A stretch of 64,000 nt of DNA. Origin: Demequina oxidasica (lineage in GTDB: Bacteria; Actinomycetota; Actinomycetes; Actinomycetales; Demequinaceae). Position numbers and translations under genes: made by a program. The stretch spans positions 1,207,322 through 1,271,321 of the forward strand of contig NZ_BBRE01000001.1 in the NCBI RefSeq assembly GCF_000975115.1, read 5' to 3'. Below, piece after piece: positions 29,884 to 44,317 of this stretch (position 1 is the first letter of the stretch; the number at the start of each line of letters is the position of its first letter). The notes below the pieces were generated by a model, which worked only from the letters and a program-made list of their open reading frames with translations, was not told the origin of the DNA and ran no database searches.

Positions 29884-30765
29884 CTAGGCTTCGGTCCGCC
29901 CCGCCCAGCGGTAGCTAGTCGCGCCCCGCACCCCCACGTGGGCGCTGTATACGCCACCGTCGACCGGCAGGGGATCGTCGACCCCTTCGCTTGCCGTGGT
30001 GATGACGAGCTCGTCCCCCATGAATGCGGCCGCGGTCACGTGACGCGCGGGTACCGGAAGCTGAGCGTCGAGCATCCCGGTGGGGGTGTAGCGGCGCACT
30101 TCGCTGCCGCCCCACACCGCGACCCAGATGAAGCCCTCGGCGTCGACAGTGAGCCCGTCCGGGTACCCAGGCTCCACCACAAAGGAACGTACCGGGACGG
30201 GCGTCGGCGTCGCGTAGTCGTAGACGTTCACTCGATTTCGCAGGGTGTCCGCGTGATACAGCCGGAGCCCCGAGGGGTCAAAGCCCAACCCGTTGGAGAG
30301 CGTCAGCGACCGCGCGAGTGTCTCGACGTGTCCAGCGGAGTCGATGCGTAGCAGTCGTTCCTGGTTCTCGACGTCGCCCTCGTGCAGGGTGCCAATGAGG
30401 AGCCGGCCCTGCGGGTCTATCGTGCCGTCGTTGAAGCGGCGCTGTGGGTCGGCCTCCAGGGCATCGGCTGGCAGTGGGGGTCCGGATCGCACCACGCCAT
30501 CGATCGAGCGGGTGACCAGACGATCGCGCTCGACGATGAGCAGCCCCCCGTCCTGAGCGAGCAGGACGCAGGTCACGGCGCGATCCGCCTCGTGAACCAC
30601 GGTGCGTTGGGCGAGGTCAGCACCTTCGCGCCGGTAGACGCGGTGGGATGTGATGTCCACGTAATACACGCACTGTTCGCGGTCGTCCCACACTGGGCCC
30701 TCTCCCAAAACGTCCGTGGTTGTACCTACGCGTGCGGCCGCGGTCAGGCGGCGGGGCTCAGGCAA
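29884..30765 (-). CDS. SMP-30/gluconolactonase-family sugar lactonase
   Basis: A 293-residue six-bladed propeller that opens sugar lactones to aldonic acids. Metal-site and family motifs: LGEGPVWDDREQ, RRFNDGTIDPQGRLLIGTLH, LSNGLGFDPSGLRLYHADT and YPDGLTVDAEGFIWVAVWGG. It is the last gene of the reverse-strand sugar operon and overlaps the upstream SDR by 8 nt. In context it should make galactonate (or a related acid) for DgoD. Confidence 0.9.
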   Translation of the reverse strand: MPEPRRLTAAARVGTTTDVLGEGPVWDDREQCVYYVDITSHRVYRREGADLAQRTVVHEADRAVTCVLLAQDGGLLIVERDRLVTRSIDGVVRSGPPLPADALEADPQRRFNDGTIDPQGRLLIGTLHEGDVENQERLLRIDSAGHVETLARSLTLSNGLGFDPSGLRLYHADTLRNRVNVYDYATPTPVPVRSFVVEPGYPDGLTVDAEGFIWVAVWGGSEVRRYTPTGMLDAQLPVPARHVTAAAFMGDELVITTASEGVDDPLPVDGGVYSAHVGVRGATSYRWAGRTEA

Positions 30766-31549
30766 AGCGCGCGCTCAGTCCGCCGTCAACGTCCAATGTC
30801 GCGGCCGTGATGAAACTCGCGTGGTCCGAGGCGATGAACGACACGACTGGCGCGATGTCCTGGGGCGTCGCGACACGTCGCAGGGCGTGAGTCGCCACGA
30901 TGGCCGCCACGGCCTCCTCGCCGATCTCCTCGAAGTACGCGTCGATGCGCTCGCTACGGGTCCATCCGGGGCAGACCATGTTGACCCGCACTCCGTGGGG
31001 TCCGTAGTCCAGTGCAAGCGTTCTGGTGAGCCCGCCCAGTCCCGCCTTACCGGCGGCATAGGGGAAGGCCCCTTCGATGGTCATGCGAGAGTGCAGGGAG
31101 CCGATGTTCACAATGCTTCCGCCGCCCGACTCGATCATGGACGGCAGCACAGCACGTGCCATGAGCCAGGCTGACGTGAGGTTGAGGCGCATGTGCGAAT
31201 CCCAGTTCGCGACGGTCATCGTGAGCGCGTCATCGTCTCCGTCGCCGCTCGCGTTGTTGATCAGGATGTCCACCCGCCCGGCCTCCGCGACCACCTCAGC
31301 TACGGCATCGGCGATGGCTTGCTCGTCGGTGACATCGACGTGCAGGTAACGGCATTGGTCGCCGATGCGCTCGGCGGTCTGCTGGCCCTCCTGGTCGGCG
31401 ATGTCAAAGATCCACATGCGTGCGCCGTCGGCGACGCCTTGCGCGGCGATGGCCGCGCCGATGCCCTGAGACCCGCCGGTGACAATCGCGACCTTGTCCT
31501 GCCACAGGCGTCCGGAGACGCCCGCGCCAACTGGCTCGACCTGGTTCAT
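30758..31549 (-). CDS. SDR-family oxidoreductase (likely sugar 1-dehydrogenase)
   Basis: A 263-residue classical short-chain dehydrogenase. It has the cofactor loop VTGGSQGIGAAIA, DVTD, LINNAS, active-site Ser in NIGSLHS, and YAAGK (Tyr-x-x-x-Lys). FDIAD after strand 2 suggests NAD+. Next to a lactonase, the simplest role is oxidation of an aldose to its lactone, but the substrate is not proven. AAGGAAG precedes the ATG; 27 nt separate it from the enolase-like gene. Confidence 0.9.
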   Translation of the reverse strand: MNQVEPVGAGVSGRLWQDKVAIVTGGSQGIGAAIAAQGVADGARMWIFDIADQEGQQTAERIGDQCRYLHVDVTDEQAIADAVAEVVAEAGRVDILINNASGDGDDDALTMTVANWDSHMRLNLTSAWLMARAVLPSMIESGGGSIVNIGSLHSRMTIEGAFPYAAGKAGLGGLTRTLALDYGPHGVRVNMVCPGWTRSERIDAYFEEIGEEAVAAIVATHALRRVATPQDIAPVVSFIASDHASFITAATLDVDGGLSARFA

Positions 31550-31576
31550 CGGTGACTTCCTTGTCTTTTGCTTAGT

Positions 31577-32869
31577 TCACAGTGCCGGATTGCGAGGCTG
31601 ACCCGCAAGCGCGGCGCGGCCAGCGAACGGCAGGGTGCCGTCACTTTCGAGTTCGAGGAGTCGGTTCCACTTGGCCGTGCGCTCGCTACGCATGGTCGAG
31701 CCGACCTTGATCTGCCTCGCGCCCCACCCCACGGCGAGGTCGGCGAGCCAGCTGTCCTCCGTGTCGCCGGAGCGCGCACTGACGACGGTCTCGAAGCCCG
31801 CACCAATGGCCTCGAACACCACGCGCTCTGCGCGCGATACGGTGCCGGCCTGATTGACCTTGACGAGCACCGAGTTCGCGGAATCCTCCTCGATTCCACG
31901 GCGCACGCGACCCAGGTTGGTGGCGAAGGTGTCGTCGCCAAGCATCTGCACGTGGCGCAGCATTGAGGTGGCGGCGCGCGAGCCCTCCCAATCGTCCTCG
32001 CCCACGATGTCCTCGATCGACACGATCGGGTAGCGCTCCACCCAGGACGCGACGAGGTCGAGCCACTCGGCCACACTCAGCCGGTCACCCTGACCCGCGA
32101 GCACGATCGCGTCGCCGTCCACGAGCTGCGTGGCGGCGACGTCGAGGGCGATGCCCATCTCGTCGGCCGTAAAGCCAGCCGCGTCTATGCCGTCGGAGAG
32201 CAGTGCGAGCACCGCCTCATTGCTGTCGAGGCGAGCAGCGAGGCCACCCTCGTCAGCGACCAGCGCAGACCAGCCGCCGCGCGCGTCAAGCAGCTTGGCG
32301 CAGGCTGCTCGCACCCTGGCGACCTGCTCGATCGCCTCGGTGAATGATTCGGCGCCCACTGGGACCGCCAGGAAGTCCTGAATGTCTACCGCGCGCCCGG
32401 CGTGGGCGCCGCCGGACAGGATGTTGACCATCGGCATCGGGATGCTTGCTTCACGTGGGCCAGTGAGAGTCGACCACAGGGGCGCGTTCTCCGAGGCTGC
32501 GTGCGCGACGGTGACGGCAAGCGAGACCGCGAGTGCGGCGTTGGCGCCCAGGCGGCCCAGGTTGTCGGTGCCGTCGTGGGCCTCTAGCGCGTCATCGATG
32601 GCGATACGTTCGCTGACGGACCTGCCGGCGATCAGTGGCGCGTACTCCTCGTTGACGGCACGCACCGCTCCGCTGACGCCCCAGCCGCCGTAACGTTCGC
32701 CGCCGTCGCGCTTCTCGAGGGCCTCGTGCCGACCGGTGGACGCGCCCGAGGGTGCGATGGCCCGGCCCTGCGTGCCGTTGTGCAGCGTGACACGGCAGGC
32801 GACGGTGGGCCGTCCCCGAGAATCGAGGGCTTCCCAGGCGTGGGTGTGGGCGATGGCGTCGTGGGTCAT
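31577..32869 (-). CDS. enolase paralogue with altered active-site residues
   Basis: A 430-residue protein aligning along its whole length with phosphopyruvate hydratase: SGASTGRHEALEKRDGG, NILSGGAHAGRAVDIQDF, ADEGGLAARLDSNEA, ALDVAAT, SIEDIVGEDDWEG, GDDTFATN, LVKVNQAGT and RQIKVG. Metal ligands and both catalytic lysines (K337, K388) are kept. Two usual residues differ: the catalytic Glu of QEF is Asp165, and the His of SHRSGE is Ala365. Being inside a sugar-acid operon and diverged, it is probably not the housekeeping enolase. It overlaps the kinase gene by 4 nt. It may still make PEP, or act on a related acid. Confidence 0.85.
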   Translation of the reverse strand: MTHDAIAHTHAWEALDSRGRPTVACRVTLHNGTQGRAIAPSGASTGRHEALEKRDGGERYGGWGVSGAVRAVNEEYAPLIAGRSVSERIAIDDALEAHDGTDNLGRLGANAALAVSLAVTVAHAASENAPLWSTLTGPREASIPMPMVNILSGGAHAGRAVDIQDFLAVPVGAESFTEAIEQVARVRAACAKLLDARGGWSALVADEGGLAARLDSNEAVLALLSDGIDAAGFTADEMGIALDVAATQLVDGDAIVLAGQGDRLSVAEWLDLVASWVERYPIVSIEDIVGEDDWEGSRAATSMLRHVQMLGDDTFATNLGRVRRGIEEDSANSVLVKVNQAGTVSRAERVVFEAIGAGFETVVSARSGDTEDSWLADLAVGWGARQIKVGSTMRSERTAKWNRLLELESDGTLPFAGRAALAGQPRNPAL

Positions 32870-33864
32870 CGGGGTGTCTCCTTGAGGCGGTTCCAGGGGT
32901 CACCGATCGCATCGACCGGCTGGGTGAGAAGGTTGGCGCCTAGCGCGTAGGTGCGGCGTCGCTGCGCATCGTCGAGGTACTCGGCGGGGGAGCGGCCGTC
33001 TACCCGCGCGAGCAGGAGGCAGCCAATCTGTTGGGACAGATGAACGGCATCCACGGCAGGGGCGCCGGGCAGGTACGCGGCGAAGAAGGCGGCCGATGCG
33101 GCGGCGAACTGGTCCTCCCACTGCGGCAGATGGATTGCCTTCATGAGCAGGTGGCTGGTCAGGAAGGCGGGATCGAACGTGGGGTCCCCCAGATGGGCGA
33201 CCTCAAAATCGATCACCCAGGTGCCGGAGTTGCCCACCAGGAAGTTCTTGGGAGAGAAGTCGCCGTGCACCAGGCAGGTGCGTGTCGCGGCCATCTTGTC
33301 GATCACAGCGTGGATCTGGCTTGCGAGGTCTGGGTTACGTTCGGCCGCGGTGCGGTGATACGGCTGCAGACGCAGAGCATCGAACATGTCGGTGTCGCCC
33401 ACGAGGTCCCCACTGAGGCCCGCGCCGTTCTGCGTAGCGCGCTGCATAGTGCTCAGCGTGCGACCCAGGCTCGCGGCGACGCTCACGTCGATGTCGCCAG
33501 CGACCAGACGTTCCTTCCAGTCCGTCCAATCGTCCGGGGCGCGCTCGATGGTCAGAGTGAGTGCCTCGGGGTCCAGGTCAACGGTGAAGGGTGCGGCCTC
33601 GGAATCGATGTTCGCCAACACCCTCAGGCCCTCTGCCTCGCGCAGTACTCGCTCGCGCGGCGCGAACCAATCGTCAGCGACCTGCAGTTTGCCACGGGCC
33701 TGCTTGAGAACCAGGTGAAGGTCGTTGTCGTCGACTGCGAGGACCACATTGCTCACGCCGCCACCCAGAAAGCGGGCGGTGGCACGAGTCGGGTCGACGA
33801 TTCCCCGCGCACCCAGGTAGGGCACGACGGTGTGCTCATCGAGTAGGGGGTCGTCGGCGCTCAA
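32866..33864 (-). CDS. APH-fold small-molecule kinase, sugar operon
   Basis: A 332-residue aminoglycoside-phosphotransferase-fold protein. The catalytic loop HGDFSPKNFLVG and metal-binding IDFEVAHLGDPTFDPAFL are complete, unlike two other members in this window. The N-lobe has GGGVSNVVLAV and VLKQARGKLQV. The style is close to methylthioribose kinase and relatives. Flanked by an SDR (4-nt overlap) and an enolase paralogue (4-nt overlap), it is more likely a sugar-acid or glycerate kinase than a resistance enzyme. Substrate is inference. Confidence 0.8.
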   Translation of the reverse strand: MSADDPLLDEHTVVPYLGARGIVDPTRATARFLGGGVSNVVLAVDDNDLHLVLKQARGKLQVADDWFAPRERVLREAEGLRVLANIDSEAAPFTVDLDPEALTLTIERAPDDWTDWKERLVAGDIDVSVAASLGRTLSTMQRATQNGAGLSGDLVGDTDMFDALRLQPYHRTAAERNPDLASQIHAVIDKMAATRTCLVHGDFSPKNFLVGNSGTWVIDFEVAHLGDPTFDPAFLTSHLLMKAIHLPQWEDQFAAASAAFFAAYLPGAPAVDAVHLSQQIGCLLLARVDGRSPAEYLDDAQRRRTYALGANLLTQPVDAIGDPWNRLKETPR

Positions 33865-34631
33865 TACGTTGCCCGCCCGCCGCTCAGGTCGAACGTGAAG
33901 CCGGTGGTGAAGCCGGCAGCGGGCGATGCGATGAAGGCGAGCATCTCTGCGACCTCGGTGAGCTCGCCGGTGCGCCCCATCGGAATCTTCGCCAACATGT
34001 AGTCGACAACCTCCTGCGGCTGGCTATCCAGGAACGGGGTGCGGATGACGGCAGGGGCCACGGCGTTGACCGTGATGCCATCCTGTGCGTACTCCTTGCC
34101 CTGCGACTTCACCAGGCCAATGAGTCCGGCCTTGCTGGCGGAGTACCCAATCATGTTGGGGTTGCCCTCCTTGCCGGCGATCGACGCGACGTGGACGATG
34201 CGCCCGTAGCCGCGAGCGAGGAAGTGCGGGATGGCGACGCGCGCAATGATCAAGCCGGGCGTGAGGTTGACGGCGAGGGTGCGTTCGAACTCCTCGACCT
34301 CCACCTCGTGGCTGCGGCGCCCAAGGGGACCCTGGATACCGGCGGAGTTGATCACCGCGTGAACGGTGCCGTCGCGCTCCACCGCGCCGTCGAACACGAC
34401 CTGCAGCGCTGCCTCGTCGGTCACGTCGGCTGCTGCGCCGTACGCGGAACCGCCGGCCGCCGTGATGGCCCCGGCCACAGCATCGGCCGCCTCGCCGTTG
34501 CGGTCAACAACGGTGACGGTGACGCCGCGCGCGCCTAGGAGCAGGCACGTTGCCTCGCCGATCCCGTTGCCGCCGCCGATGACGATGGCGGCCGTTCCCG
34601 CCGGGAACTGCGCAGGAGCGGCGGCGCTCAC
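33861..34631 (-). CDS. SDR-family dehydrogenase (2-keto-3-deoxy-aldonate type)
   Basis: A 256-residue short-chain dehydrogenase with VIGGGNGIGEATCLL as cofactor loop, VDRN after strand 2 (NAD+-type Asp), INSAG, the catalytic Ser in HVASIAG, and YSASK. It lies directly downstream of an FAH-family hydrolase, as in L-fucose/L-rhamnose routes where an SDR oxidises the 2-keto-3-deoxy acid to a diketo acid cleaved by such a hydrolase. Overlaps of 4 nt on both sides show a single operon. Confidence 0.88.
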   Translation of the reverse strand: MSAAAPAQFPAGTAAIVIGGGNGIGEATCLLLGARGVTVTVVDRNGEAADAVAGAITAAGGSAYGAAADVTDEAALQVVFDGAVERDGTVHAVINSAGIQGPLGRRSHEVEVEEFERTLAVNLTPGLIIARVAIPHFLARGYGRIVHVASIAGKEGNPNMIGYSASKAGLIGLVKSQGKEYAQDGITVNAVAPAVIRTPFLDSQPQEVVDYMLAKIPMGRTGELTEVAEMLAFIASPAAGFTTGFTFDLSGGRATY

Positions 34632-35491
34632 TTGGCGCCGTCCGCGCTGTAGTCAATGAACGCATGGCGCTGGGAGCCGAGGCCGCTGATCGAGACCTCG
34701 ACCACGTCGCCGGCGGACAGGAACTTGCCGGGGGTGAACCCGGAGCCGACGCCCTGAGGGGTTCCCGTGTTGATAACGTCGCCGGGCATGAGGGTCATGA
34801 ACTGGCTGATGTACCAGACCAGGTAGTCGACGTCGAAGATCATGTCCGCGGTGGAGGAGTTTTGGCGCACCTCGCCGTTGACGGTCAGCTTGAGGTCGAG
34901 GGCGTTCGGGTCGGAGACCTCGTCCGCCGTCACTATCCACGGACCGAGCGGATTGAAGGTTGCGCAGTTCTTGCCCTTGTCCCACTGGCCGCCCCGTTCG
35001 AGCTGGAAGGCGCGCTCGGACACGTCGTCCGAGATCGCGTAGCCAAGGATGTAGTCGCGTGACTCCTCCACCGAGGCCAGGTACTCAGCCTTGCGGCCGA
35101 TGACGATCGCGAGCTCCACCTCGTAGTCGGTCTTCAGGCTGCCCGGAGGGATTACGACATCGTCGTATGCGCCCTGCACCGTGTACGGGGTCTTCATGAA
35201 CAGGATGGGCTCTTCGGGGATGGCCATCTTGGCTTCGGCCGCGTGCTGGCGGTAGTTCAGCCCCACGCAAATCACCTTGCCGGGCCAGGCAATAGGTGAG
35301 CCGATGCGCACGGTCGAGAGGTCGATCGTCGCGTCGCCGGCAGCGGCGGACGCCTTGATAAGGCGCATGCCGTCGATGGTGGTGGGGTCAGCGCCCGCGG
35401 CGATGGCGGGACGGACGTCCACACCCGTGAGGCCGTCGATGCTGGCGACCTCGATTTCGTGGCCGGGCTCACCTATGCGAAGGAACTTCAT
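34628..35491 (-). CDS. fumarylacetoacetate hydrolase-family enzyme (diketo-acid hydrolase)
   Basis: A 287-residue FAH-fold enzyme. It has KVICVGLNYRQHAAEAK, then FMKTPYTVQGAYDDVVIPPG, DYEVELAIVIGRK with the acidic metal ligands, YAISDDVSERAFQ, and MTLMPGDVINTGTPQGVGSG. Members cleave carbon-carbon bonds of 2,4-diketo acids; 2,4-diketo-3-deoxy-L-fuconate hydrolase is a well-studied relative. ATG 35491 is used: GAGGAG (35501-35506) sits 9 nt upstream and the domain begins MKFLRIG. It is the first gene of the six-gene operon divergent from dgoD. Confidence 0.9.
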   Translation of the reverse strand: MKFLRIGEPGHEIEVASIDGLTGVDVRPAIAAGADPTTIDGMRLIKASAAAGDATIDLSTVRIGSPIAWPGKVICVGLNYRQHAAEAKMAIPEEPILFMKTPYTVQGAYDDVVIPPGSLKTDYEVELAIVIGRKAEYLASVEESRDYILGYAISDDVSERAFQLERGGQWDKGKNCATFNPLGPWIVTADEVSDPNALDLKLTVNGEVRQNSSTADMIFDVDYLVWYISQFMTLMPGDVINTGTPQGVGSGFTPGKFLSAGDVVEVSISGLGSQRHAFIDYSADGAK

Positions 35492-35547
35492 TGTTTTCTT
35501 CTCCTCGATTATCGCGCGAACGTCGAGCTCGCTCTTGAAGGCAAAGT

Positions 35548-35622
35548 TATCAGATAGGTGTTGCCGGTGCAATGGCACCAATTCGCATATTCCCTCTAGA
35601 GGCCACCCATATCTATCTGATA
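35548..35622. promoter_or_regulatory. divergent dgo promoter region with paired operator motifs
   Basis: TATCAGATA (35548-35556) and its reverse complement TATCTGATA (35614-35622) lie near the two promoters. Between them are a GGTGC-AATG-GCACC palindrome (35566-35579) and a -35-like TTGCCG (35561-35566). The 9-mer ATCAGATAG recurs before the GntR-family gene at 41038, which points to that regulator as the binding protein. Confidence 0.6.
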
Positions 35623-35649
35623 TGTTTACTTCCAAACAAGGAGGTTTTG

Positions 35650-36795
35650 ATGAAGATCGACCGGATTGAGACGTTCATGGTCCCCCCACGGTGGCTATTC
35701 GTGCGGATCGAGACCGACGACGGCCTGGTCGGTTGGGGTGAGCCGGTCGTGGAGGGCCGCGCGGCAACTGTGCGCGCCGCAGTCCAGGAGTTCTCCGAGA
35801 ACCTCATTGGGCGGGACCCAAGCCGGATCGAAGACATCTGGCAGGAACTCACCAAGTCCGGCTTCTACCGCGGCGGCCCTGTGTTCTCAAGTGCCATCGC
35901 AGGGATCGACCAGGCACTCTGGGACATCGCTGGCAAGCGCCTGGGAGTGCCCGTTCACGAGTTGCTCGGCGGCGCCGTTCGCGACCGTGCGCGTGTCTAC
36001 GGCTGGATCGCAGGTGACCGCCCGGGCGACATCGCCGAGGAGGCCCAGCTCCGGCTCGAGCAGGGCTTCGACTGCGTCAAGATGAACGGGTCGGCCGAGC
36101 TCAGCGTCATCGCGTCACAAAGCGAGCTACACGCCGTCGTGGAGCGCGCACAGGCAGTGCGGAACGCCATCGGTGATGCGGACTTCGCTCTTGACTTCCA
36201 CGGCCGGTTCTCTCCCGCCATGGCGCGGCGCACCCTGCCCCTCCTTGAGGGGCTCAACCCGCTTTTTGTGGAGGAGCCGGTGGTTCCCGAGTTGGCCGCG
36301 GAGCACCTCGCGCGCATCACCTCTGGGACGACCGTTCCAATCGCCACGGGGGAACGCGCCTACTCGCGGTGGGACTTTGTTCCGCTGTTGAGCGCGGGGA
36401 TCGCCGTGGCCCAGCCGGACGTATCGCACTGTGGCGGCATCTCCGAGATGAGGCGCATCGCCGCCCAGGCAGAAACTCATGGAGTCTCTCTTGCGCCTCA
36501 CTGCCCGCTGGGGCCACTCGCGCTCGCGTCCTGCCTCCAGGTCGACTTCACCGCTCCCAACTTCCTGATTCAGGAGCAGAGCCGCGGCATCCACTACAAC
36601 GACTCGTGGGATGTGCTGGACTACGTCCTCGACTCATCCGTGTTCGACGTCGTTGACGGCTCGATTGAGCGACTCACCGCCCCCGGGCTCGGCGTGGAGA
36701 TCGACGATGCGGCTGTTCGAGAGGCCGACAAGCGTGGCCACAACTGGCACGCTCCCGTCTGGCGTCACCCTGACGGCAGTCTCGCTGAATGGTGA
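35650..36795 (+). CDS. dgoD: D-galactonate dehydratase
   Basis: A 381-residue enolase-superfamily (mandelate racemase subgroup) enzyme converting D-galactonate to 2-keto-3-deoxy-D-galactonate. It matches the E. coli DgoD pattern throughout: PPRWLFVRIETDDGLVGWGE, GFYRGGP, IAGIDQALWDIAGKRLGVPV, DFHGRFSPAMA, FVEEPVVPE, ATGERAYSRWDF, LQPDLSHAGG-type QPDVSHCGGISE, LAPHCPLGPLALASC and the GIHYN loop; it ends WRHPDGSLAEW. AAGGAGG (35638-35644) precedes ATG 35650. It is transcribed away from the FAH operon from a shared regulatory region. Confidence 0.95.
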   Translation: MKIDRIETFMVPPRWLFVRIETDDGLVGWGEPVVEGRAATVRAAVQEFSENLIGRDPSRIEDIWQELTKSGFYRGGPVFSSAIAGIDQALWDIAGKRLGVPVHELLGGAVRDRARVYGWIAGDRPGDIAEEAQLRLEQGFDCVKMNGSAELSVIASQSELHAVVERAQAVRNAIGDADFALDFHGRFSPAMARRTLPLLEGLNPLFVEEPVVPELAAEHLARITSGTTVPIATGERAYSRWDFVPLLSAGIAVAQPDVSHCGGISEMRRIAAQAETHGVSLAPHCPLGPLALASCLQVDFTAPNFLIQEQSRGIHYNDSWDVLDYVLDSSVFDVVDGSIERLTAPGLGVEIDDAAVREADKRGHNWHAPVWRHPDGSLAEW

Positions 36796-36817
36796 TCACT
36801 TCTGAGGTGGCATGAAT

Positions 36818-36860
36818 GGGCCCCCCCGTTACTCGCATTCGAGTGACGCGGGGGCCCTTT
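36818..36860 (+). terminator. intrinsic terminator after dgoD
   Basis: GGGCCCCC and CGTTACTCG pair with CGAGTGACG and GGGGGCCC around a CATT loop, followed by TTT. It lies 22 nt after the dgoD stop. Confidence 0.85.
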
Positions 36861-36978
36861 CTGTTTGCGCCGATGCTAGGGCGGGGGCGACGGCCGAAGT
36901 TGAAACTGGCCTCGCCTGGTCCGGCGCAGCATGGGCTGGGCTGGGTGGCGTGTCCCTCGTCGCCGCCTGGGCAACGCA

Positions 36979-37016
36979 AAGAGCCGGCGCCCTGGTAGTG
37001 CAGGGCGCCGGCTCTT
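36979..37016. terminator. terminator of the convergent transporter operon
   Basis: A perfect 16-bp stem (AAGAGCCGGCGCCCTG and its complement) with a 6-nt loop. A/T ends on both sides allow termination in both directions; it lies 20 nt beyond the permease stop. Confidence 0.8.
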
Positions 37017-37035
37017 CTTATGCGGGGGGTAACGG

Positions 37036-38088
37036 TTAGTCAGGTAGGCCCACTGCGCGGGTTCCGCGACGGCGCTGCTGAATCACCACGGCGATCACGA
37101 GCATGGTGCCCTGCGCGATGTCCTGCCAGAAGGAGTTGACTCCAAGAATCTGCAAACCGTTGGTCAGCACGCCCAACAGGATGACGGCGAGCACGGTGCC
37201 GATGATTGAGCCCTTGCCTCCTTGGAGCGCACAACCACCGAGCGCAACGGCTGTGATGACCTGAAGCTCGAGTCCCTGGCTACCTGACGTGGGCTGACCG
37301 GAGCCCGTGCGTGCTGTCAGCAAGATTCCTGCTATTGCCGCGATCACACCCATCAGCATGTAGGCGCCGATCACGTACTTGTTGATGCGCAGGCCGGATA
37401 AGCGGGCGGCGACCTTGTTGCCACCGATCGCATAGATGTTGCGGCCGATGTCGGTGAACGTGAGCATTGTGTAGACCAGCGCGGCGATCACGAGGAAGAC
37501 CAGGATGAGCACAGGGATGCCCGCGATCTTGCCGAGCGACAGGAAGGTGAAGACGTCGTCGCCACCGGTGTAGCCCTGGGCAGAGCCGTTGGAGACGAGG
37601 TTCACGACTCCGCGGTAGGCCGCGAACGTTGCGAGGGTGGCGATGACCGCGTTCACGCGCCCGTACACAATGATGAGCGCGTTGACCAGACCGGCGACCG
37701 CGCCGACCACGATTGCTACAGCCATGCCGAAGATGGCGCTGCCGCTGGAGGTGAACACCATGGCACTGATCACGGAGGCGAGTCCCGCTTGCGAGCCGAC
37801 CGAGATGTCCAGGCCGCCGAGCAGCATGATCACGGTCTGTCCCACGGCGAGTACACCCAGGATGGCGACACCCTCGCCGATGACCTGCATGTTAGGCAGG
37901 CTGAAGAAGTTGGCGTTCTGAGAGCCGATGGCCGCCGCGAGCACGATGAGCGCGACGATGAGGCTCAGATTTTGCGCGCCGACGCGGGCCACGAACTTCG
38001 CGGCGAAGCTGAGCTCGCGCTTTGCGCCGGGCTTGTCCTCAGGCGGAGCGATCTGCGTGGGAGAGGCGCTCCCTGTTGAGATGGTCAT
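37036..38088 (-). CDS. sugar ABC transporter permease (RbsC/AraH type)
   Basis: A 350-residue BPD_transp_2 family permease with about ten membrane helices starting near residue 40 (LIVALIVLAAAIGS). The family motif GQTVIMLLGGLDISVGS is present, and the later ALGGCALQGGKGSIIGTVLA with LTNGLQILGV is typical of RbsC/AraH. It forms the membrane channel for the SBP at 39751 and the ATPase at 38085, which it overlaps by 4 nt. Confidence 0.93.
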   Translation of the reverse strand: MTISTGSASPTQIAPPEDKPGAKRELSFAAKFVARVGAQNLSLIVALIVLAAAIGSQNANFFSLPNMQVIGEGVAILGVLAVGQTVIMLLGGLDISVGSQAGLASVISAMVFTSSGSAIFGMAVAIVVGAVAGLVNALIIVYGRVNAVIATLATFAAYRGVVNLVSNGSAQGYTGGDDVFTFLSLGKIAGIPVLILVFLVIAALVYTMLTFTDIGRNIYAIGGNKVAARLSGLRINKYVIGAYMLMGVIAAIAGILLTARTGSGQPTSGSQGLELQVITAVALGGCALQGGKGSIIGTVLAVILLGVLTNGLQILGVNSFWQDIAQGTMLVIAVVIQQRRRGTRAVGLPD

Positions 38089-39680
38089 GATGTTCCTTCC
38101 AGGGCGACGTTGCCCGAGTTTGTCGGTTGATCAAGGGAGTCCGAGATCGCCAAGGTCAGTACGTTTTGTTCGGTCGCGTCGGCGCGGGCGACTTCGCCCA
38201 CGATTTCTCCGCCACGCATCACGAGGATGCGGTCGGCCAGGCCAATGACCTCGATGAGTTCATTCGAGATCACGACCACGGCGATGCCTTCAGCTGCGAG
38301 TTCGCCGATGATCCGGTAGATGTCGGCCTTTGCGCCAACGTCAACTCCGCGGGTGGGTTCGTCGAGGATGAGCACCTTAGGCTTGCGTGCCAGCCAGCGT
38401 GCAACGACGACCTTTTGCTGGTTGCCGCCGGACAGGGTCTTTACCTCCTGGTCCATGGACCCTGCGCGCACGCGCAGTCGCTTCATATAGTCGGCGACCA
38501 GCCCGCTCTCCAACCCGCGCCGCACAAAGCGTGCGCGGGTGAGTGAGTTGAGGACGACGAGGGAGATGTTTTCCTTGATAGAACGCGTCATAACGAGCGC
38601 CTCGGTCTTGCGCTCCTCGGGAGCGAGACCGATTCCTGCACGCACAGCGTCGATCGGCGAACGAAGTTTCTGCACCTCGCCGGAGATGGCGATGGTGCCG
38701 CTGAGGATCTCGGCATCGCCTGCGAGTGCCTTGGCAAGCTCGGTGCGCCCCGCACCCACAAGGCCGGAAAACGCGACTACTTCGCCGGCCCGCACGTGAA
38801 ACGAGATGTTGGAGACGTCTGCCGTAGTGAGCTCCTTAACCTCGAGCACGATCTCGCCCGCCTCGGTGTGGTCGCGATCGAAGGCGCCGAAGACGTCACG
38901 GCCCACCATGTTTCGCACCATCTCGGACTCGTCGGTGTCGGACATCAGCGAGGCGAAGACGGACTGGCCGTCGCGCAACACGGCGACACGGTCGGCGATC
39001 TCGGCAATCTCCTTCATACGGTGTGAGACGTAGATGACGGCCGTTCCGGAGGCGCGCAGGCGCGCGATGAACGCGAACAGCGCCTCTACCTCGTGCTCGG
39101 ACAGTGAAGAGGTGGGCTCGTCGAAGGCAATGACTGCGACCGAGTCGTCCTTGAGCGCGCGGAGGATTTCTACCAGCTGGCGCTGTGCGGGTGAGAGGCG
39201 AGACCCCAGGGTCGTCGGGCTGATAGCAGAGGAGAATCCCAGACGGTCAATGACGGCCTGGGTTTCTGCGATGACCTCGTGACGGCTAACGAAGCGTGCG
39301 TGGCGCGGGATGGATCCAATGAAGACGTTCTCGGCCACAGAGACGTCGTCCAGGATCTCGGGCTCTTGGTAGATCACGCGGATGCCGGCCGCCTTGGCCT
39401 CAAAGGGGGAGGAGAAAGTGCGGTCTGCACCTGCCAAGTTGATTGATCCGCTCGAGGGTGCGTGTTCACCGCTGAGGATCTTCAAGATCGTGGACTTGCC
39501 TGCTCCGTTCTCGCCCATGACCGCGAGGACTTCACCAGCACGCACGTCGAGATCCACGCCGCTGAGTGCACGGATGGGGCCGAACGACTTGGTGATGCCA
39601 CGCATCTGCAGCACGGGCGGTGCATCGCCATTCGTGTCGTGCAGCGGCTGCTCCGCGTCATGATTTTGCGTCGAGTTCAT
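38085..39680 (-). CDS. sugar ABC transporter ATP-binding protein (double-domain, AraG/RbsA type)
   Basis: A 531-residue ATPase with two nucleotide-binding domains. The first has GENGAGKSTILKILSG, the signature LSPAQRQLVEI and VIAFDEPTSSLS. The second has a degenerate Walker A (SGLVGAGRTELAKALAG), then TLSGGNQQKVVVAR and VLILDEPTRGVDVG, as usual in this family. ATG 39680 is chosen because AGGAGC lies just upstream and the ABC domain begins about 25 residues in; a longer frame would run back over the hairpin and the SBP gene. Confidence 0.93.
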   Translation of the reverse strand: MNSTQNHDAEQPLHDTNGDAPPVLQMRGITKSFGPIRALSGVDLDVRAGEVLAVMGENGAGKSTILKILSGEHAPSSGSINLAGADRTFSSPFEAKAAGIRVIYQEPEILDDVSVAENVFIGSIPRHARFVSRHEVIAETQAVIDRLGFSSAISPTTLGSRLSPAQRQLVEILRALKDDSVAVIAFDEPTSSLSEHEVEALFAFIARLRASGTAVIYVSHRMKEIAEIADRVAVLRDGQSVFASLMSDTDESEMVRNMVGRDVFGAFDRDHTEAGEIVLEVKELTTADVSNISFHVRAGEVVAFSGLVGAGRTELAKALAGDAEILSGTIAISGEVQKLRSPIDAVRAGIGLAPEERKTEALVMTRSIKENISLVVLNSLTRARFVRRGLESGLVADYMKRLRVRAGSMDQEVKTLSGGNQQKVVVARWLARKPKVLILDEPTRGVDVGAKADIYRIIGELAAEGIAVVVISNELIEVIGLADRILVMRGGEIVGEVARADATEQNVLTLAISDSLDQPTNSGNVALEGTS

Positions 39681-39703
39681 CAGCGCTCCTAAGTGTTGGG
39701 GGA

Positions 39704-39731
39704 GGGGCGCACCGGTTGCCCGGTGCGCCCC
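39704..39731 (-). terminator. intercistronic hairpin between SBP and ATPase genes
   Basis: A 12-bp perfect stem (GGGGCGCACCGG with its complement, TTGC loop) without a T-run. Such hairpins usually protect the upstream binding-protein mRNA or partly terminate, giving more SBP than ATPase and permease. Confidence 0.6.
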
Positions 39732-39750
39732 AAGGAGAGGGTGTGCTGCG

Positions 39751-40797
39751 TTAGCCGCAGAGCATCCCGGAGTCTTCCCAGGTGTCGGCGTCAACCATGA
39801 CTGCCTTACCGAGGGTCTCCGCGGGGATGGGGTCCCCCGTGCGCAGGTGGTCCACGAGGACCTTGACCGATGCGGCACCGTCGACGCGTCCGTCGATGTA
39901 CAGCGCTGCCTTGTTGCCCGACTCAACGCCGGCCTTCCAGTCCTTGCACGCGAGGTAGGCACCCAGGCCGACGCCGATGACGTCGTCTGCGGCGACGCCG
40001 CTGTTCTCAAGGGCCTTGACCGAGCCGGTCACGCCCTCGTCGTTGCATCCGACGACGACCCAGTGCTTGACGCCCTGGTTCGCGGTGATGGCCGCTCCGG
40101 TCTTGCTGAGCGCTGCAGGAGTGGAGTTGTCGGTACCGACCATCACGACGTCGGGAGTCTCGCCTGCGACCTCGGTGAACATCTCAAGTTGACCGGTCTC
40201 ACGGTCCTGGCACACACCCAGGTCCTCCTGCTTGACGCTGATGATGCGGGTGTCGTCCGCCGACCAGCCGGCTGCCACATAAAGCTCGCCAGCCTTCTCG
40301 CCCACCTGCTGACCCATCGTGAGCGAGTCGATGCTCACCCAGGGGGCGGGCGTGCCGTCTGCCAGTTCGAACGGGTCGTCGGAGGCCACGTAGGGGATGC
40401 CGGCCTTGTCGAGGATCTGCGCGACCTGAGGTCCGATCTTGGCGTCGGGCACGACGATGGCGACGCCATCTGCACCCTGGGCAACTGCGGTGTTGACGGC
40501 CGTGATGGCGGCATTCGAGTCGGTTCCTACGTCGACCATGGTCACCTCGACGTTGCCGAGTTCGTCGGCCTGCGCCTTGGCCCCTTCGGCCTCGTCGACG
40601 AAGTATTGCTGGTCACCCTGCTTCTGGATATAGGTGATTTTGAGAACCTCGTCAGCCTCGGCAGGAGCGGCGTTGGTGGTATCGGTGGAGGCGTCGGTCG
40701 CCTCTTCCTGACCAGAGCTGCAGGCAGCAAGCGAGAACACGAGAACTGCAGCGGCACCGATGGCCCCGACGCGTTGGAAACGGTTGGTGATGGTCAT
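39751..40797 (-). CDS. sugar-binding lipoprotein of ABC importer (AraF-like)
   Basis: A 348-residue exported lipoprotein: signal peptide with lipobox LAAC (Cys26), an acidic linker, then a periplasmic-binding-protein fold. Marks such as AAITAVNTAVAQGADGVAIV, VPDAKIGPQVAQILDKAGIP, GVKHWVVVGCNDEGVTGSV and DDVIGVGLGAYLACKDW follow the AraF pattern (arabinose, galactose or fucose). First gene of the importer operon; GGAG precedes the ATG. The galactonate genes nearby suggest galactose or an aldonate as cargo. Confidence 0.9.
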   Translation of the reverse strand: MTITNRFQRVGAIGAAAVLVFSLAACSSGQEEATDASTDTTNAAPAEADEVLKITYIQKQGDQQYFVDEAEGAKAQADELGNVEVTMVDVGTDSNAAITAVNTAVAQGADGVAIVVPDAKIGPQVAQILDKAGIPYVASDDPFELADGTPAPWVSIDSLTMGQQVGEKAGELYVAAGWSADDTRIISVKQEDLGVCQDRETGQLEMFTEVAGETPDVVMVGTDNSTPAALSKTGAAITANQGVKHWVVVGCNDEGVTGSVKALENSGVAADDVIGVGLGAYLACKDWKAGVESGNKAALYIDGRVDGAASVKVLVDHLRTGDPIPAETLGKAVMVDADTWEDSGMLCG

Positions 40798-40833
40798 TCC
40801 ACTCTCCTTTGAGTAGTTCAGTTCGGGATGTCA

Positions 40834-40948
40834 TACAACTTTGTACGGCTGTGCTGTTTGGATAGCGCCCCTGCCACGCGCATCTCCGTGTGAGTGCCAG
40901 TGCTATTCGCGCAACTTGATCATCATTGACAACAAGGTGGTATGTCAA
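40834..40948 (-). promoter_or_regulatory. importer operon promoter region with palindrome
   Basis: TACAA-CT-TTGTA (40834-40845) is a 12-bp inverted repeat upstream of the SBP start. On the reverse strand TTGACA (40943-40948) with a weak TGATGA 17 bp later (40920-40925) may be the promoter. The ATCAGATAG motif seen at dgoD is absent here, so another regulator may act. Confidence 0.35.
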
Positions 40949-41037
40949 GTTCTTCAGACTATTCGTTATCTTTCGAGACATTTGAGGGGAGGCTCAGGCC
41001 TCAAATCGCCGAAAACCGCTCGCCCGAGCCCGAACTA

Positions 41038-41049
41038 ATCAGATAGGCT
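41038..41049 (+). promoter_or_regulatory. operator overlapping the gntR promoter
   Basis: ATCAGATAG (41038-41046) overlaps a -10-like TAGGCT (41044-41049) that ends 7 nt before the ATG of the regulator. It is the same 9-mer as at 35549 and 35613, so autoregulation is likely. Confidence 0.55.
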
Positions 41050-41056
41050 CCGTGAC

Positions 41057-41866
41057 ATGGCCACAAAAGTCACGACTACTGACGGACCACCCGCCTCCGC
41101 CTCTGGAGACGGATCCGCAGTTGCCGCCGCGGGTGCCCGTGAGGGTGAGACCGCGCTCGCGTATGTGTTGCGCGAACTCGAGGAACTGATCGTTGGCCAG
41201 CACGAGGCGGGCGACCAGTTGCCCGCCGAGACCACACTGGCGGAGTCACTAGGGGTCAGCAGGCTGACGATTCGCGAAGGGCTCAAGGTCCTCGCGGGCC
41301 AGGGTTTGGTCGAGCTGAGCCGCGGCCGCCGCCCCACCGTGCGCCACCCGGACAGCACGGTGATGTCGCGCTTCCTGACCATCGCGATCCGCCGAGACTC
41401 GCGTGCCGTGCTCGAATTGCTCGGCATTCGCCGTTCGCTCGAGGTGTTGTCCGCGTCCGAGGCTGCTAAGCGCACCAATCGTGCGGCGCTCGCGGCCATG
41501 AGTAGCGCGTTGGATGAAATGCAGCGAGCCGCTGAGTCGATCGACGGCACCCCGGAAAGCGTGACGCGCTACAACTCAGCTGACGTGGGATTCCACGAGG
41601 CCCTCGCGCTTGCCAGCGGCAATCAGATGCTCTCGCTGCTGCTGGAGAGTCTTGCCGAAGCCCTGCACCACAGCTTCTCTCAGAGTTTTACCGGGTTCAT
41701 GGCGAGCGGTGGTGACATCTTTGACGCCGTCGCGGAGCATCGCCACATCTACGACCTGGTAGTGGCAGGGGACTCTAAGGGCGCGGAGCGAGCTATGAAG
41801 CAGCACCTGGATCGCACCGCGCGTGACCTGCAGTCCGCGCTACGCGGTGCGGAGTCCGCGAGCTAG
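41057..41866 (+). CDS. GntR/FadR-family (FCD) transcriptional regulator, DgoR-like
   Basis: A 269-residue repressor. The N-terminal 35 residues are a flexible Ala/Gly-rich tail. Then comes the GntR winged helix (EAGDQLPAETTLAESLGVSR, LTIREGLKVLAGQGLVELSR). The C-terminal FCD ligand domain has VLELLGIRRSLEVLSASEAA, the metal/ligand residues in NSADVGFHEALALASGN, and EHRHIYDLVVAGDSKGAERA. It lies between the importer and metE. The shared ATCAGATAG sites suggest it controls dgoD, the FAH operon and itself, probably relieved by galactonate or a similar acid. Confidence 0.9.
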   Translation: MATKVTTTDGPPASASGDGSAVAAAGAREGETALAYVLRELEELIVGQHEAGDQLPAETTLAESLGVSRLTIREGLKVLAGQGLVELSRGRRPTVRHPDSTVMSRFLTIAIRRDSRAVLELLGIRRSLEVLSASEAAKRTNRAALAAMSSALDEMQRAAESIDGTPESVTRYNSADVGFHEALALASGNQMLSLLLESLAEALHHSFSQSFTGFMASGGDIFDAVAEHRHIYDLVVAGDSKGAERAMKQHLDRTARDLQSALRGAESAS

Positions 41867-41989: not shown

Positions 41990-44317
41990 ATGTCTGAACT
42001 CAATAACGCCTCTGCCCCTGCGACCGCCTTCCCCGGCGGAACCATTCTTGGTTACCCCCGCATCGGCCGAATGCGTGAACTGAAGAAGGCGCTCGAGTCG
42101 TTCTGGAAGGGCGCCTCGACCGCTGCCGATCTGGAGGCAACCGCCGCCTCGTTGCGCACCGAGAACCGCGACCGCCTCGCCGCGCTCGGCCTGGGCCGCA
42201 CCAACTCGTCGATCCCGTCGAACTTCAGCTTCTACGACCACGTGCTCGACGCCTGCGTGACCTTTGGCGCCGTCCCCACTCGTTTCAACGACCTCCGTGC
42301 AGCCGATGGCTCGGTTGACCTGGCCGGCTACTCCACCATCGCGCGTGGCGTGGGCAACAAGGCGCCGCTCGAGATGACCAAGTGGTTCGACACCAACTAC
42401 CACTACCTGGTTCCCGAGATCGGCCCCGAGACCGAGTTCCAGCTGAACTCGACCCGCTGGGTTGACGAGTTCATCGAGGCCAAGGAAGCCGGCTTCGTCA
42501 CGCGCCCCGTCATCACGGGCCCGCTCACGTTCCTGTACCTCGCCAAGGCATCGGACGATGCTCCGAGCGGCTACCAGCCCATCGAGCGCCTGGGCGACCT
42601 GCTCGCCATCTACCTTGAGCTCCTCGCAGCGTTCAAGGAAGCCGGAGCCGAGTGGGTTCAGATCGACGAGCCCATCCTGGTCGCCGACACCGACAACGAC
42701 CGCACCGAGGTCCTCGCCAACGCGACCAAGGTCTACGACGCACTGTCCGCGGCCACCAACCGCCCCGCGCTGTTCGTTGCCGCTCCGTACGCCTCGCTCG
42801 ACGACGCACTGCCCGTGCTCGCGGCCACCGGCGTCGAGGCCATCGGCCTGGACCTGGTCCGTGGCTCCGTTCCCGCAAGCGTCGACCTGCGCGGCAAGAC
42901 CGTGGTTGCTGGTGTCGTGGACGGTCACAACATCTGGCGCACCAACCTCGACGAGGCGCTTGCCAAGGCCGACGCGCTCGAGTCGCTGGGTGGTACCGTC
43001 ACCGTCGCGACCTCGACGTCGCTGTTCCACGTGCCTCACACCCTGCAGGGTGAGGAGCACCTGGGTGCAGAGCTGATCTCGTGGCTCGCGTTCGCGGACG
43101 AGAAGGTCGCGGAGATCGTCACGCTGTCTAAAGCCCGCAGCGAGGGTGAGGGTGCCGTCGCCGGCGCCCTGTCCGAGGCTCGCACCGCCCTCGCATCGCG
43201 TGCCGCTCACCCGGGCACCAACCGTGCCGACGTGCGCGACGGACTCGCTGGCATCTCGCCCGCGGACTTCCAGCGCAGCGCCTACTCGGTGCGCGAGGCA
43301 GCACAGGCCGACCGCTTCAACCTGCCGGAACTCGCCACCACCACCATCGGCTCGTTCCCCCAGACCCCCGACATCCGCAAGGCACGTGCCGCGTGGGCCA
43401 AGGGTGAGCTGGACGACGCCGGCTACGAGGCCGCGATGAAGGCGGAGATTGCCTCCGTCGTGAAGCTGCAGGAAGACCTGGGACTCGACGTCCTGGTGCA
43501 CGGTGAGGCCGAGCGCAACGACATGGTGCAGTACTTCGCCGAGCTCCTCGACGGCTTCGACGTCACCAAGAACGGCTGGGTTCAGTCCTATGGCTCGCGC
43601 TGCACGCGTCCGTCCATCCTCTGGGGAGACGTTGCTCGCCCCGAGGCCATGACGGTGCGCTGGGCCGAGTACGCGCAGTCGCTGTCGGACAAGCCGGTCA
43701 AGGGCATGCTCACGGGTCCCGTGACCATCCTTGCGTGGTCGTTCGTTCGCGACGACCAGCCGCTGGGCACCACCGCCAACCAGGTGGGCCTCGCGCTTCG
43801 CCAGGAGATCGCCGACCTCGAGGCTGCCGGAATCGGCATCATCCAGGTGGACGAGCCCGCCCTGCGCGAGCTGCTTCCCCTGAAGAAGGCCGACCAGCGC
43901 TCGTACCTGGACTGGTCCGTGAACTCGTTCCGCCTGTCCACGGCCGGCGCGAAGGACGACACGCAGGTCCACACGCACCTGTGCTACTCGGAGTTCGGCG
44001 AGATCATCGACGCGATCGACGGCCTCGACGCCGACGTGACCTCGATCGAGGCTGCCCGTTCGCGCATGGAGGTCCTCCCGGCCATCAAGCAGCACGGCTA
44101 CGAGCGCCAGATCGGCCCCGGCGTGTGGGACATTCACTCGCCTCGCGTGCCGTCCACGCAGGAAGTCACCGAGCTGCTGCAGCTGGCCAAGGACTCGATC
44201 CCTGGCAAGCAGCTGTGGGTCAACCCTGACTGCGGTCTGAAGACCCGTGGCTACGCCGAGACCAATGAGTCGCTCGAGCACATGCTCGAGGCGACCAAGG
44301 CAGTGCGCTCCGCGTAA
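41990..44317 (+). CDS. metE: cobalamin-independent methionine synthase
   Basis: A 775-residue zinc enzyme transferring methyl from 5-methyl-THF-polyglutamate to homocysteine. N-terminal LGYPRIGRMRELKKALESFW and the C-terminal catalytic barrel are both complete: FPQTPDIRKAR, VLVHGEAERNDMVQYF, QSYGSRCTRPSILWGDV, zinc ligands in HTHLCYSEF and NPDCGLKTRG. Codon use is strongly GC-ending, suggesting high expression. It closes a folate route with metF (27996) and the glycine cleavage genes. Followed by a strong terminator. Confidence 0.98.
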   Translation: MSELNNASAPATAFPGGTILGYPRIGRMRELKKALESFWKGASTAADLEATAASLRTENRDRLAALGLGRTNSSIPSNFSFYDHVLDACVTFGAVPTRFNDLRAADGSVDLAGYSTIARGVGNKAPLEMTKWFDTNYHYLVPEIGPETEFQLNSTRWVDEFIEAKEAGFVTRPVITGPLTFLYLAKASDDAPSGYQPIERLGDLLAIYLELLAAFKEAGAEWVQIDEPILVADTDNDRTEVLANATKVYDALSAATNRPALFVAAPYASLDDALPVLAATGVEAIGLDLVRGSVPASVDLRGKTVVAGVVDGHNIWRTNLDEALAKADALESLGGTVTVATSTSLFHVPHTLQGEEHLGAELISWLAFADEKVAEIVTLSKARSEGEGAVAGALSEARTALASRAAHPGTNRADVRDGLAGISPADFQRSAYSVREAAQADRFNLPELATTTIGSFPQTPDIRKARAAWAKGELDDAGYEAAMKAEIASVVKLQEDLGLDVLVHGEAERNDMVQYFAELLDGFDVTKNGWVQSYGSRCTRPSILWGDVARPEAMTVRWAEYAQSLSDKPVKGMLTGPVTILAWSFVRDDQPLGTTANQVGLALRQEIADLEAAGIGIIQVDEPALRELLPLKKADQRSYLDWSVNSFRLSTAGAKDDTQVHTHLCYSEFGEIIDAIDGLDADVTSIEAARSRMEVLPAIKQHGYERQIGPGVWDIHSPRVPSTQEVTELLQLAKDSIPGKQLWVNPDCGLKTRGYAETNESLEHMLEATKAVRSA

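Follow-up and report, generated by a model that had tools for sequence, protein, structure and literature searches.

In route III of L-rhamnose degradation (LRA5/LRA6), a short-chain dehydrogenase/reductase (SDR) oxidises the 4R-hydroxyl of a 2-keto-3-deoxy acid and a FAH-family hydrolase then releases pyruvate and a 2-hydroxy acid. A comparable gene set occurs in the window, the 64,000-nucleotide stretch of Demequina oxidasica contig NZ_BBRE01000001.1 analysed here, as a cassette of ~12 kb (29884–41866) sited between osmC and metE. The cassette departs from the rhamnose route in its dehydratase, DgoD, in its expected product, D-glycerate instead of L-lactate, and in having a kinase and an enolase added. 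DgoD is shared with the De Ley-Doudoroff pathway, which we take to run through DgoD, DgoK and DgoA; the cassette differs in that cleavage would proceed by oxidation and hydrolysis, and DgoK was not found in the Demequina genomes searched. Conversion of glycerate to 2-phosphoglycerate (2-PG) and phosphoenolpyruvate (PEP), as proposed for the added kinase and enolase, is known from the glycerate branch of the branched Entner-Doudoroff pathway and the serine cycle, in which an ordinary enolase follows a class II kinase. Available excerpts of PMC2063504 place the kinase of that branch in class II (MOFRL) and describe three unrelated classes of glycerate kinases, none of them APH-like. The non-phosphorylative pentose route III of Herbaspirillum also resembles the cassette, with a dehydrogenase and a hydrolase acting on a 2-keto-3-deoxy acid; excerpts of its source describe pentose substrates and glycolate as the product, and a term search of the main text found no 'glycerate' (PMC6336799). 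Among the open-access PMC matches listed (titles and abstract openings), none described a galactonate route to pyruvate and glycerate, an APH-type glycerate kinase, an enolase group like the one below or a pairing of the two; two of the listed papers, PMC12021255 and PMC2914790, contain the term 'diketo-3-deoxygluconate'.

Here, we propose that the cassette is a horizontally acquired, self-contained catabolic unit for a D-galacto sugar acid. An importer would take up the sugar or its lactone, a first SDR (SDR-A) and a lactonase would yield D-galactonate, DgoD would dehydrate this to 2-keto-3-deoxy-D-galactonate (D-KDGal), a second SDR (SDR-B) would oxidise the 4R-hydroxyl to give a 2,4-diketo acid, and the FAH hydrolase would cleave the latter to pyruvate and D-glycerate. 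The APH-fold kinase would then phosphorylate D-glycerate at O2 to give 2-PG, from which the divergent enolase, eno2, would remove water to form PEP. With the substrates and the chemistry of kinase and eno2 assigned from homology, stereochemistry and gene context, we give a galactonate route via pyruvate and D-glycerate to PEP a probability of roughly 60%. Such a route had been suggested in the initial annotation; clean cassette borders, the missing DgoK, a 4R-type SDR, an FAH protein resembling a diketo-deoxyrhamnonate hydrolase, the receptor and the recurrence of the kinase–enolase pair speak for it, whereas a galactokinase in all genomes searched and the altered eno2 do not. If true, the route would add a hexonate branch to non-phosphorylative route III, and the database labels 'aminoglycoside phosphotransferase family' and 'phosphopyruvate hydratase' would conceal, respectively, a fourth unrelated class of glycerate kinase and enolases of a subfamily whose active site is altered. 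Most surprising of all, and more so than the galactonate route itself, is the kinase–enolase pair, whose changed active site raises for a well-studied glycolytic enzyme the question of why a pathway-bound enolase loses Glu168 and His373.

Borders and gene order of the cassette

Nine relatives were searched for MetE and the flanks of metE were read. metF, osmC and metE were adjacent in all eight examined relatives without the cassette kinase, and the osmC–metE interval of the window is filled entirely by the gene set running from the lactonase (from 29884) to a GntR-type gene (to 41866). The ninth relative, G036, is the other carrier and matches the cassette in gene content and order (kinase 501.7 bits); the kinase was present in 2 of 59 related genomes at E ≤ 1e-20, the window's own counted. 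The cassette is one inserted unit that includes the importer (ABC genes, 37036–40797) and the GntR-type gene (41057–41866, plus strand), and its clean borders can be argued to mean that importer, regulator, kinase and enolase share one function. All seven genes from lactonase to dgoD lie where the initial annotation had placed them, with matching family scores, but the unit it outlined was too small, as importer and GntR-type gene belong to it. The window genome (2.62 Mb, 8 contigs; G000 in genome comparisons) is close to Demequina aurantiaca, whose kinase is 91% identical to that of the window.

Six minus-strand genes (lactonase, SDR-A, eno2, kinase, SDR-B and FAH hydrolase) overlap by 4–8 bases, with one 27-base gap, an operon-like arrangement; dgoD points the opposite way, divergent from them. 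The best starts are ATG 35491 for the FAH gene and 35650 for dgoD, the longer frames of both overlapping; homology searches with the FAH protein were run on 34628–35488, its first Met excluded.

Predicted route to pyruvate and D-glycerate

The SMP-30/SGL lactonase (29884–30765, minus strand; PF08450 189 bits, cut-off 26.3), a proposed galactono-lactonase, is the least conserved cassette protein relative to its D. aurantiaca copy (79.5%). SDR-A (30758–31549, minus strand), a proposed aldose 1-dehydrogenase, best matched 4ni5 in PDB, with glucose 1-dehydrogenase 3vtz and sulfoquinovose 1-dehydrogenase 9gwu among the seven matches listed, and fell under the cut-off in each of the best 25 NCBIfam models listed. 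D-galactonate dehydratase, DgoD (35650–36795, plus strand), was placed in its family by profile (PRK14017 573.8 bits, cut-off 311); its sole PDB match at E ≤ 1e-60 was 3rr1, a putative D-galactonate dehydratase (461 bits), and what we take to be the metal-ligand and acid/base motifs are kept (LDFHGR 181, EEP 208, GER 234, APHCPLGP 282).

SDR-B (33861–34631, minus strand) is a proposed 2-keto-3-deoxy-galactonate 4-dehydrogenase of the 4R type, like 2-keto-3-deoxy-L-rhamnonate (L-KDR) 4-dehydrogenase, with 6d9y as its nearest PDB structure (177 bits). Excerpts of PMC11199699 give 6D9Y as the structure closest to L-KDR 4-dehydrogenase (51 and 54% identity), state that the C4 preference of this enzyme is opposite to that of the L-fucose enzyme, whose substrates are the 4S acids L-KDF, D-KDP, L-KDGal and D-KDGlu, and propose Lys209 and Arg247 of 6D9Y as carboxylate ligands. 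SDR-B keeps both, as the K of MLAKIP and the R of GGRATY, if the numbering of the chain differs by 8 from that of the paper, as we infer. By Cahn-Ingold-Prelog assignment D-KDGal and L-KDR are both 4R, so an SDR of this type fits DgoD as the dehydratase and the stereochemistry fits pyruvate and D-glycerate as products. The FAH hydrolase (34628–35491, minus strand), which would act on 2,4-diketo-3-deoxy-galactonate, best matched 8gsr, L-2,4-diketo-3-deoxyrhamnonate hydrolase (219 bits; runner-up 176). Against NF053535, the equivalog model of that hydrolase, it scored 274 bits and missed the cut-off of 500, and is thus a relative of the enzyme, not a member. The analogy with L-fucose on which the galactonate route had originally been built gives way to the nearer one of the L-rhamnose (LRA5/LRA6) route, in which the best PDB matches of both SDR-B and the FAH hydrolase lie.

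The importer comprises an ABC permease (37036–38088, minus strand; RbsC type by reading of an open reading frame (ORF) within the inserted cassette), an ABC ATPase (38085–39650, minus strand; RbsA type by reading, ORF listed to 40010 with the start uncertain, D. aurantiaca copy 97.3% identical) and a sugar-binding lipoprotein (39751–40797, minus strand). All five PDB matches of the lipoprotein at E ≤ 1e-20 were L-arabinose-binding proteins (best 99.7 bits), the ligands of which are L-arabinose, D-galactose and D-fucose; of what we take to be their ligand residues, K10, D89/D90 and N205 are kept and E14, W16 and N232 changed. Among these three sugars, only the D-galacto hexose would yield glycerate for kinase and enolase. 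We regard it as quite unlikely that the cassette serves L-arabinose or D-fucose, in which case the hydrolase would yield glycolate or D-lactate and the kinase–enolase pair would be incidental. By our reasoning the acids of these sugars share the C2–C4 configuration with galactonate and would suit the type of SDR-B and the stereochemistry of DgoD, the receptor is nearest to L-arabinose-binding protein, and a galactokinase exists for galactose; but glycolate and lactate need neither kinase nor enolase, both of which two Demequina genomes carry in one overlapping gene run of one cleanly bordered cassette, and the pair recurs with FAH genes and SDRs in Paracoccus and Roseibium.

The earlier remark that typical DgoK and DgoA genes are missing was borne out for DgoK, as PF05035 was found in none of the eight Demequina genomes by whole-genome search (in 14 control genomes, E. 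coli and Caulobacter were positive), but a KDPG-aldolase-family gene occurs elsewhere in six of the eight, including G036 and G000 (G000:C8:308869). This aldolase would allow a De Ley-Doudoroff-like course in which the APH kinase acts on KDGal, the aldolase cleaves its product, and the FAH hydrolase and SDR-B have other roles, which we hold to be highly improbable. Its basis is the presence of such genes in both carriers; the copy in G000, however, adjoins KduI-like, SDR and pfkB-kinase genes (named by reading of translations), an apparent uronate cluster with a kinase of its own. The cassette kinase family, moreover, was found with eno2 in 29 loci and with a DHDPS-type aldolase in one (KDPG aldolase was not looked for there), and the missing DgoK argues against this course as well.

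A full-length class I glycerate kinase was found in G000 (318 bits) and five other Demequina genomes. G036 (39 bits) and G009 (56 bits) gave partial matches only, above the Pfam cut-off of 23.3; since the six genomes with a full-length match show similar partial ones as well, we read them as another protein. MOFRL glycerate kinase was found in none of the eight. G036 may thus depend on the cassette kinase for glycerate; G000 need not.

The kinase and its divergent enolase

The kinase (32866–33864, minus strand; PF01636 65.3 bits, cut-off 23.2) is a proposed D-glycerate 2-kinase. Its Pfam matches were confined to APH, TCAD9 and RIO1, with no PF02595 (class I), MOFRL or P-loop domain, and the motifs HGD.SPKN and D.E were invariant in nine aligned sequences. 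The best solved relatives by profile were 2pyw, an 'uncharacterized protein' (57.1 bits), and methylthioribose kinase 2olc (52.9 bits). It would be a fourth glycerate-kinase class, a function to which the gene context points.

Overlapping the kinase gene, eno2 (31577–32869, minus strand) encodes a second enolase of the window genome, which also has a canonical one. Although it scored 425.6 bits against TIGR01060 (cut-off 300), eno2 lacks the canonical contacts Glu168 and His373, its signature being SGG/QDF/ADEGG/SARSG/IKVG. All 30 paired enolases read (22, plus 8 of L071–L077; L038 lay outside the set, and the enolase of L042 is the copy in L072) share five substitutions, namely QE to QD, SHRSG to SARSG, GDEGG to ADEGG, NGG to SGG or GGG, and KTG to KVG or KIG. 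These changes were found in none of 26 canonical copies (eno1, 3 unpaired plasmid enolases, 21 census copies and L064). Among eno2 copies, L018 reads IQDV, L029 IQDF, and L044/L074 and L048/L077 SGGAHS; among canonical ones, one census copy has IKSG and L064 has SHRTG. In yeast numbering, QD presumably replaces Glu168 by Asp and SARSG His373 by Ala. We take all five positions to lie at or next to substrate contacts of canonical enolase, and the two main changes to place smaller side chains near the C3 hydroxyl of 2-PG. The positions that we map to Lys345, Glu211, the metal ligands, Arg374 and Ser375 were invariant in a 20-row eno2 alignment. In an unrooted tree of 57 rows, with the signature columns kept, one branch (support 100/99) split 32 eno2 rows, the window's among them, from 25 canonical rows; because loci overlap, some eno2 genes appear in more than one row, and some end branches are long. 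The protein family thus looks like one lineage spread over bacteria and haloarchaea together with the kinase, and would be either a specialised 2-PG enolase or an enolase for another phospho-acid.

The kinase–enolase pair recurred well beyond Demequina. A single-protein search of genome contigs for more kinase copies gave D. aurantiaca only; by tblastn, 32 plasmid records had the kinase, among them records of haloarchaea and of Rhodococcus, Rhizobium, Azospirillum and Cupriavidus. In the 19 of these that were examined as loci, eno2 lay in the same stretch in 18, the exception being Enterobacter L026. Kinase homologues were present in at least 5 of 396 genomes, a lower bound because five candidates per genome were scored, and eno2 adjoined the kinase in three of the five (G000, G064, G078). 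A census of 394 Actinomycetes genomes with an eno2 profile, in which the best 30 loci were read, placed at least eight genomes on top at >600 bits, each of which also had the kinase and one or more FAH genes in the stretch examined; the bit score separates imperfectly, as a second eno2 in G619 scored 591 and canonical copies 589. Overall, the pair was found in Actinobacteria, Proteobacteria, Persicobacter and haloarchaea.

Gene neighbours were counted at 29 loci (the window, L021, 18 plasmid loci, L017, L018 and L071–L077; matches at E ≤ 1e-15). An FAH gene was near the pair in 19, a D-2-hydroxyacid dehydrogenase (CtBP) in 16, and one or the other in 22; SDR genes were found in 11, sugar-ABC genes in 9, an extradiol-type VOC dioxygenase in 8, a lactonase in 4, PEP carboxylase in 3 and DHDPS in 1. 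Two contexts stood out. The first resembles sugar-acid degradation: Paracoccus has kinase–eno2–FAH followed by a GGRATY-type SDR, Roseibium has the same three genes with a GGRATY-type SDR ~6 kb away, both with sugar ABC genes, and the Embleya locus has FAH, SDR and racemase-family dehydratase genes. In the second, CtBP accompanies kinase and eno2, joined by PEP carboxylase in Rhizobium L023 and L028 and Cupriavidus L033. The L023 copy of PEP carboxylase, when read for motifs that we take to be typical of the enzyme, has TAHPT, FHGRGGSVGRGGGP and SDSNKDGG, with RNSG in place of RNTG and no NPY.D found. The serine cycle runs from hydroxypyruvate through glycerate, 2-PG and PEP to oxaloacetate, and the second context reads as this same sequence. 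Within 9 kb, Halomarina has dgoD, CtBP and the gene of a DHDPS-family aldolase on one strand and kinase–eno2 on the opposite strand, separated by two chaperonin genes. Both contexts point to glycerate and PEP independently of the initial annotation's chain, and recurrence near FAH, D-2-hydroxyacid dehydrogenase and PEP carboxylase genes supports a conversion of glycerate to 2-PG and PEP. The earlier explanation of kinase and enolase as a glycerate module gains from these neighbours, but it has to contend with 2-PG contacts that are changed in every paired copy read.

Several further observations weigh against the galactonate–glycerate route. Changes around the 3-OH of 2-PG would be unexpected in a plain 2-PG enolase. 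SDR-B fell under the cut-off in the best 25 NCBIfam models listed, and the FAH hydrolase under that of all six models matched. The neighbour counts stand without a random-locus baseline and were made with reference proteins partly taken from the same loci; the mandelate-racemase/DgoD family was near the pair in only 6 of 29, and neither FAH nor CtBP lay within the stretch in 7 (L007, L008, L010, L017, L018, L029, L031). Galactokinase was found in all eight searched genomes, so free galactose has another route, and the cassette may instead serve galactonate, galactonolactone or some other D-galacto sugar. With a canonical enolase and a full-length class I glycerate kinase, G000 does not strictly need the module, and the lack of the latter in G036 proves little, given that the cassette-free G009 also has no full-length copy.

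Another reading of the changed contacts, which we consider unlikely, is that the pair handles some phospho-acid besides 2-phospho-D-glycerate, for instance one with a C3 substituent or another leaving group. eno2 would then catalyse a new enolase-family reaction, common to bacteria and archaea and to several catabolic pathways, and in the window either FAH would release a product larger than glycerate or the pair would belong to a side reaction. The five substitutions in 30 of 30 paired and 0 of 26 canonical enolases, beside catalytic and metal positions invariant in 20 copies, are what such retuning would predict; PEP carboxylase near the kinase in L023, L028 and L033 is not, and the D-galactonate chain predicts unsubstituted glycerate. 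Only tentatively, and as a rather doubtful generalisation, do we suggest that the pair is an undescribed two-enzyme module in which an APH-fold kinase phosphorylates a 2-hydroxy acid at O2 and an enolase whose pocket is enlarged at C3 forms PEP or a PEP analogue by elimination from the phospho-acid.

Three kinase homologues were excluded from the pair count. L019 (177 bits, 10-kb stretch) and L020 (131 bits, 15-kb stretch) are remote and no adjoining enolase was seen in either. The homologue on the Enterobacter plasmid L026 (36.6%) likewise had no adjoining enolase, none being annotated near it, and a different-looking gene set; its neighbours are U32 peptidase, aminotransferase, M14 peptidase and nucleotidyltransferase genes, a run that looks biosynthetic. 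Nine loci (L023, L028, L032, L033, L071, L076, L004, L005, L027) share a CtBP–kinase–eno2 cluster with varying extras, including FAH hydrolases, an extradiol-type VOC dioxygenase, zinc alcohol dehydrogenase (ADH), cupin and 3-hydroxybutyryl-CoA dehydrogenase-like genes, which is perhaps an aromatic pathway releasing hydroxypyruvate; open-access literature searches on this aromatic-type context and on enolase mutants returned nothing useful. In Azospirillum brasilense (L010, 1912–11243), kinase and eno2 lie beside genes that read as a PEP-mutase-family lyase, an iron-type ADH, a PhyH-type dioxygenase and TRAP components, and L072 (8078–13481; G619) has two different eno2 copies near a single kinase.

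Candidate regulatory sites and the metE flank

The gene at the cassette end (41057–41866) is a GntR-type regulator by reading of its ORF, and its D. aurantiaca copy is 95.5% identical. The 9-mer ATCAGATAG occurs three times in the window as a candidate GntR operator: twice in the dgoD/FAH promoter region (35549–35557, plus strand, and 35613–35621, minus strand, the latter inside the inverted repeat CATATC-TATCT-GATATG at 35608–35624) and once directly before the GntR-type gene (41038–41046, plus strand). Chance would give 0.14 occurrences in 64 kb, a figure that flatters the motif because it was picked by inspecting these sites. Relative L021 has three counterparts of ATCAGATAG at corresponding places. 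In the convergent interval between dgoD and rbsC, two strong hairpins formed by inverted repeats (36818–37014, limits approximate) are probably terminators.

At the far end, metE of the window (41990–44317, compared with L078) is 99.5% identical in DNA to that of G036, and the protein of a GNAT gene past metE is 98.8% identical to the G036 copy. The cassette genes, metF and osmC showed 83–92% identity where a DNA match to G036 was obtained, the lactonase giving none. Recent recombination around metE appears likely.

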